From positions 1-64,000 of the forward strand of contig JANDLU010000001.1 in the NCBI GenBank assembly GCA_024330215.1: a stretch of 64,000 nt of DNA, read 5' to 3'. Position 1 is the stretch's first letter. The number at the start of each line of letters is the position of its first letter. Below the pieces are notes generated by a model that saw only the letters and a list, made by a program, of their open reading frames with translations, had not been told where the DNA came from and did no database searches. The position numbers were made by a program, and so were the translations under genes. Source of the stretch: Candidatus Gaiellasilicea maunaloa (GTDB lineage Bacteria; Actinomycetota; Thermoleophilia; Gaiellales; Gaiellaceae). Below are positions 48,662 through 50,232 of the stretch, piece by piece.

Positions 48662-48665
<4 letters not shown>
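48084..48665 (+). CDS. Histidine phosphatase family protein
   Basis: A 193-aa phosphoglycerate mutase-like phosphatase with the catalytic RHG motif in VLVRHGQSELN, second His in VCHEIP and the Glu in DDIEIGELEG. Substrate not deducible. Leaderless start; its 3' end overlaps the aspS stop (48662-48665). Confidence 0.9.
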
Positions 48666-49948
<1,283 letters not shown>

Positions 49949-50208
49949 CGGTGGTCACCTCCTCGGACGATCGCCTGGAGGTGCGGACGGGAGGCGCTCC
50001 CGCGGTGCCACCGCACTTCGCCGCCTCACGGCGGCCTCGATTCGGGCCCGATGACGGGGGCGACCGACGGGGTCTACTGAGCCTGCAATCACAATGGATT
50101 GAGGGCGTTCTTCCCGCAGCTCCGGAGTGTTGTTCACGGGTGACCGAAGACCGCCTTCACAGCTCCCGGCGGCTCTCTCGGCTCCGGACGATCCCGCTAC
50201 TCGTCTCC
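49949..50208 (-). promoter_or_regulatory. T-box riboswitch, translational type, Asn specifier
   Basis: On the minus strand, stem I closes GGAG (50208-50205) with CTCC (50127-50124) and GGG (50195-50193) with CCC (50140-50138). The internal loop holds AGTA (50201-50198) on one side and GAACA on the other, giving specifier AAC (50134-50132). The antisequestrator has outer helix GTGCGG/CCGCAC, T-box bulge TGGCACC (50010-50004) and inner helix GCGGGAG/CTCCCGT. In the off state CACCTCC (49983-49977) pairs with the Shine-Dalgarno GGAGGTG (49962-49956). Control is therefore of translation start. This accounts for the gene-free stretch between aspS and tRNA-Leu. Confidence 0.88.
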
Positions 50209-50226
50209 GTCGACGCTTTGAGGTCG

Positions 50227-50232
50227 ATGATA
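50227..50232 (-). promoter_or_regulatory. -10 box of the T-box/aspS transcript
   Basis: TATCAT read on the minus strand, placing the RNA start near 50220, just ahead of stem I. No convincing -35. Confidence 0.5.

Follow-up and report, generated by a model that had tools for sequence, protein, structure and literature searches.

The minus strand of the window, i.e., the complete 64,000-nucleotide stretch of Candidatus Gaiellasilicea maunaloa DNA analyzed here (contig JANDLU010000001.1), carries a T-box leader directly upstream of a gene for an archaeal-type aspartyl-tRNA synthetase (AspRS2). In an Infernal search of 451 bases with the Rfam model RF00230, positions 50222-49980 matched all 219 model positions with 87.5 bits (E = 8.6e-20), and the leader was the sole T-box match in a search of the whole 3.85-Mb genome (E = 1.8e-19). 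The score falls short of the curated RF00230 cut-off (93 bits), so that a default Rfam scan misses the leader and returns tRNAs only. The locus is organized as follows:

50227-50232, minus strand: -10-like box TATCAT, a few nucleotides before the matched leader start (sequence; TANNNT boxes at a fixed distance in short relatives)
49980-50222, minus strand: full-length T-box leader, RF00230 (covariance model match)
50119-50219, minus strand: stem I with K-turn base (GUCGACGGAG / CUCCGGAGC), AGUA S-turn and apical AGAGA/UGUGA double T-loop motif
50202-50197, minus strand: AGTA side of the S-turn, GAGTAG (sequence)
50135-50124, minus strand: specifier loop GAACAACACTCC (sequence)
50129-50131, minus strand: specifier codon AAC (Asn), followed by A50128 (covariance model columns and alignment to GAC of the same-family leader L160)
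50047-50081, minus strand: end of stem II with S-turn (CTCAGTAGACCC) and stem IIA/B element (sequence and model alignment)
50016-50038, minus strand: stem III, purines on both sides (model alignment; helix covariation in short relatives)
49981-50016, minus strand: antisequestrator with helices A1 (GTGCGG/CCGCAC) and A2 (CGGGAG/CTCCCG) (model alignment and folding)
50010-50004, minus strand: T-box bulge TGGCACC between helices A1 and A2 (sequence)
49977-49983, minus strand: anti-Shine-Dalgarno sequence CACCTCC, which shares positions with the 3' strand of helix A1 (sequence and folding)
49956-49962, minus strand: Shine-Dalgarno sequence GGAGGTG, hidden by pairing in the fold without tRNA (probability 0.81-1.0)
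48662-49948, minus strand: archaeal-type non-discriminating AspRS (AspRS2, predicted), 428 amino acids, ATG at 49948 (family model, structural relatives and motifs)

The leader is a genuine, complete T-box with a score far above chance. All elements that an earlier sequence-only reading of this DNA had named, among them the AGTA motif of stem I, the TGGCACC bulge and its flanking helices, were located on the minus strand, along with the double T-loop motif, the stem II S-turn and the stem IIA/B element, which were absent from its list. The Asn specifier proposed by the same reading was recovered by the covariance model itself, which sets the specifier columns on AAC in stem I with a purine (A) next to it. 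The bulge reads UGGC and fits G73 of the host's own tRNA-Asn.

The AspRS2 enzyme and its genomic setting

The window enzyme scores 511.5 bits with the family model NF003483, aspartate--tRNA(Asn) ligase (cut-off 353), and 344.8 with the older model TIGR00458, slightly under the cut-off of 368.4. Its best solved relative is the archaeal-type AspRS of Thermus (1n9w/3kfu), the deposited names of which include non-discriminating. As in the Thermus enzyme, His and Pro are present at positions 24 and 74 (GWIHARR, QAPGG), while Trp and Lys take their place in 1b8a/3nel, an archaeal chain of the discriminating type. We take His and Pro at these sites to be marks of relaxed enzymes. Family and residues support the earlier suggestion of a non-discriminating AspRS, and the enzyme is predicted to aspartylate tRNA-Asn. 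Its catalytic motifs are intact, and the reading frame is open across 428 codons.

On the AspRS2 tree the window enzyme occupies a long branch (0.46). A compensated frameshift was noted at codons about 82-101 (window about 49640-49710, minus strand), where the alternative frame reads family-like (AELTVLAAPAGTPPIELRRPQ) and the phase of third-position GC shifts. The stretch is either a real change or an assembly error and, taken together with the long branch, could reflect relaxed selection or a local sequence error. The source genome is a draft (97% complete, 4.97% contamination). The window enzyme groups with those of same-family genomes, and this speaks against the contig being foreign.

The gene had been regarded as a lone aspS, and this view has to be abandoned: A full bacterial-type AspRS (690.6 bits) is encoded elsewhere in the genome on contig C184. 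AspRS2 is a second AspRS, which is predicted from sequence to be inducible. The expected absence of asnS was borne out insofar as no AsnRS over cut-off was found in the 97% complete genome, and gatB, the sole gatCAB gene looked for, is present. The tRNA-Asn (GTT) carries G73 and a U1-A72 pair, the latter being a requirement for the GatCAB route (PMC4206432). Lack of AsnRS, presence of gatB and the U1-A72 pair are the features of an indirect Asn-tRNA pathway. AsnRS is also missing in same-family genomes without AspRS2 (G003, G009, G039, G085, G101), and the bacterial-type AspRS is therefore presumably relaxed, too.

AspRS2 is a rare accessory gene, present in 11 of 103 genomes of the family, over cut-off in 4 of 199 genomes of the class and, by protein search, in 3 of 397 genomes of the phylum; it is absent from the single other genome of the same genus (69% complete). 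Among 30 carriers examined, 13 have an AsnRS over cut-off, none of them actinobacterial. AspRS2 nearly always resides beside a bacterial AspRS (27 of the 30 carriers) and its distribution is patchy and transferred-looking, which would suit an isozyme that is induced for resistance or under stress. In that case the T-box would turn on a distant AspRS upon inhibition of the housekeeping AspRS, and the identity of the reporting tRNA would be immaterial. We put this explanation forward tentatively, a role of AspRS2 in Asn supply being possible as well. It concerns the purpose of the enzyme and not the switch, and is thus compatible with control of AspRS2 by a T-box.

Specifiers of homologous leaders

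AspRS2 loci were gathered across genomes and from the family of the source organism. T-boxes lie directly upstream of the gene in Actinomycetota, Chloroflexota, Thermomicrobiota and some Bacillota, and the Thermaceae, Trueperaceae and candidate-phylum loci examined yielded no convincing one. The specifier was readable in 50 homologous leaders. It is GAC (Asp) in 46 and AAC (Asn) in four, i.e., in the window, in L090 and L098 from Chloroflexota and in L149 from Flavonifractor. The last three rule out the window as the only AAC case, and on the AspRS2 tree the AAC specifiers need at least four separate changes. All leaders read in the same family have GAC except that of the window. The specifier loop of L160 (GAACGACACTCC) is just one base apart from that of the window, at the first specifier base, and the window enzyme clusters with those of L022 and L154 (99/90), both of which have GAC leaders. 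The switch of the window very probably descends from one that read tRNA-Asp. At the sequence level the Asn specifier is real and, judged from these comparisons, it is a derived state that has arisen more than once in the wider family. The AAC of the window comes from one assembly, occurs once in its family and is a minority state. Alignment with L160 upholds the Asn codon claimed for the window, but Asn is not the rule for this gene.

A coupling between enzyme and specifier (His to Gln in L022, with GAC) was rejected, since His and Pro are retained in nearly all AspRS2 enzymes that have a GAC T-box. Two clostridial loci, L139 and L145, have two tandem T-box motifs before AspRS2, about 320 and 136 bases apart. 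Other T-boxes in the class sample (L002-L021, class family f6) precede ileS where the downstream gene is readable; a position ahead of an aminotransferase was dismissed because ileS is downstream on the correct strand.

It is conceivable that the leader is a usual AspRS2 T-box, still responsive to tRNA-Asp or nonfunctional, and that its AAC arose by chance substitution, or is an error in the sequence, the accessory gene being in decay. GAC in the related leaders L022, L154 and L160 would agree with this, as would the frameshift and long branch of AspRS2 and its patchy occurrence. We nevertheless judge it unlikely: The remaining T-box elements and the catalytic motifs are all intact in a gene with an open frame of 428 codons, the AAC triplet and the following purine are exact, and independent AAC in L090, L098 and L149 marks a recurrent, viable state. 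Returning to a functional Asn specifier, if one relaxed enzyme charges both tRNAs, an Asp and an Asn specifier would report much the same shortage. The shared charging enzyme may explain why the one-base change from GAC to AAC was tolerated or even useful.

Compact leaders with a minihairpin

Sixteen relatives have a minihairpin instead of the long stem I, with GAC in the apical loop; L095 and L155 are identical copies. Such compact T-boxes were noted upstream of AspRS2 in L022, L154, L024, L078, L095, L153, L156, L157, L081, L082, L086, L087, L091, L094 and L102. L022 and L024 are consequently not T-box-less, as both carry short forms that Rfam misses. At L025, from another family of the class, no T-box was seen. 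Stem II is kept in L022 and L154, which have the loop CAGACA. The other 14 of the 16 short forms are devoid of the stem II S-turn domain and have the common loop UGACG, which is invariant in the 11 short forms aligned and was not found in any tabulated long form. A stem IIA/B-like element is kept in short forms from Thermoleophilia such as L024 and L095 and is apparently lost as well in L081 from Flexivirga, L082 from Terrabacter, L086 and L091. One same-family leader (L151, 1160-1470) is intermediate, with a long stem I and GAC and without stem II.

The helices of the short forms, including the minihairpin, covary, with nine pairs changed on both sides, 97.9% of the cells paired and none of 500 shuffles reaching as high a value in a structure-fitted alignment; a MAFFT alignment of six sequences gives a similar picture. 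The 15 short forms checked all have a TANNNT box whose end lies 22-25 nt ahead of the loop. A -10-like box at such a fixed distance fits a transcript that begins at the hairpin, without space for a longer stem I. Folded in isolation, the minihairpin is not more stable than shuffled sequences, and its support comes from conservation, covariation and promoter position. None of nine short forms tested gave an Rfam T-box match at E 0.1 or 1. Because the model misses them, such switches are probably undercounted. A phylum-wide search with a short-form model (397 genomes) found only the window and the long-form leader L162, but its first filter scored only nine of thousands of candidates per genome, so that the result carries little weight.

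Short and long forms alternate on the AspRS2 tree, with at least five changes. The anticodon loop of tRNA-Asp reads UGUCA (U33-A37), and UGACG could pair with it over five bases. The evidence is about evenly poised for the proposal that the compact AspRS2 T-boxes of Actinomycetota arose repeatedly from long ones and bind tRNA-Asp via this five-pair loop-loop contact together with the T-box bulge. A short stem I has been reported to bind tRNA barely without stem II (PMC7583486), so compact leaders, if functional, would need another contact. Should the proposal be true, few natural tRNA sensors would be smaller, and the reported dependence of a short stem I on stem II would be contradicted.

Folds, proposed mechanism and known systems

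The sequence CACCTCC (49983-49977) is exactly complementary to GGAGGTG (49962-49956), which lies directly before the start codon. Sequence and fold energies show this anti-Shine-Dalgarno element in competition with the antisequestrator helix, as in translational (class II) T-boxes. For the 3' region without tRNA, the sequestrator fold was calculated at -35.3 kcal/mol and the antisequestrator at -27.5 kcal/mol; forcing the latter costs 7.8 kcal/mol and lowers the pairing of the ribosome site. As the sequestrator is more stable without tRNA, default OFF with relief by tRNA is the expected logic, and the hiding of the ribosome site suggested by the sequence-only reading gains support. Minimum free energy folding of the whole leader revealed no excess stability (z 0.5), a measure that is uninformative for a GC-rich multi-state RNA. 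Control of transcription by a terminator and antiterminator is highly improbable: Terminator-like hairpins with U runs do occur in some Chloroflexota homologs (L077), but no U run follows the sequestrator in the window, CACCUCC matches the ribosome site exactly and immediately ahead of the start codon, and the anti-Shine-Dalgarno arrangement is found again in the actinomycetotal leaders L081, L083 and L102.

We consider it likely that, in this actinobacterial genome with an indirect Asn-tRNA route, a translational T-box governs AspRS2, a second AspRS of the archaeal, non-discriminating type. The sequence elements, the alternative folds, the family of the enzyme, the accompanying genes and the sequence of tRNA-Asn are results of the analysis; that tRNA binds, in which direction regulation runs and that the enzyme acts on tRNA-Asn are inferred. 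The GUU anticodon of uncharged tRNA-Asn would pair with the AAC specifier, and the GCCA end of the same tRNA with the UGGC bulge. Once bound, the tRNA would steady the GUGCGG/CCGCAC antisequestrator and the GGAGGUG ribosome site would be freed. With tRNA-Asn aminoacylated by either Asp or Asn, CACCUCC and GGAGGUG would be paired and translation would be off. Since a T-box senses the free 3' end, Asp-tRNA-Asn would block in the same way as Asn-tRNA-Asn, and the switch would report failure of aspartylation, not of amidation.

Sequestration of the Shine-Dalgarno sequence is common to the window and the translational ileS T-boxes of Actinobacteria (Sherwood 2015, as far as summarized in PMC7583486), which also resemble the AspRS2 short forms in having a short stem I with the specifier in the apical loop. 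In contrast to the ileS T-boxes, the leader in the window combines a complete long stem I, including an elbow-binding motif, with an Asn codon and an AspRS2 gene, while its short relatives read GAC and mostly lack the stem II S-turn domain. The T-box on the tRNA-dependent Asn operon of Clostridium acetobutylicum is transcriptional, controls an operon that includes gatCAB and has a dual-codon specifier loop, whereas the window T-box is predicted to be translational, is associated with a single gene and belongs to a family with mostly GAC. An Asn specifier and genes for the indirect Asn-tRNA route are common to both (Saad 2012, 2013, as far as covered in PMC4206432). The claim that the window extends the known range of T-boxes, judged against the open-access literature, holds in a modest sense for a translational T-box on AspRS2 outside Bacillota; Asn T-boxes on genes for tRNA-dependent Asn formation were already known from C. 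acetobutylicum, as far as that source covers them. Thermus and Deinococcus likewise have an archaeal-type, non-discriminating second AspRS beside the bacterial one (1n9w, 3kfu), and it is the upstream T-box that sets the window apart from the Thermaceae and Trueperaceae loci examined. In the window and its relatives, nature has repeatedly switched a T-box by one base from one tRNA to another, the two probably being charged by the same enzyme. The leaders also form a natural gradation from the full T-box to a version of roughly 110 nt, which provides a direct test of the parts of a tRNA sensor that are dispensable.
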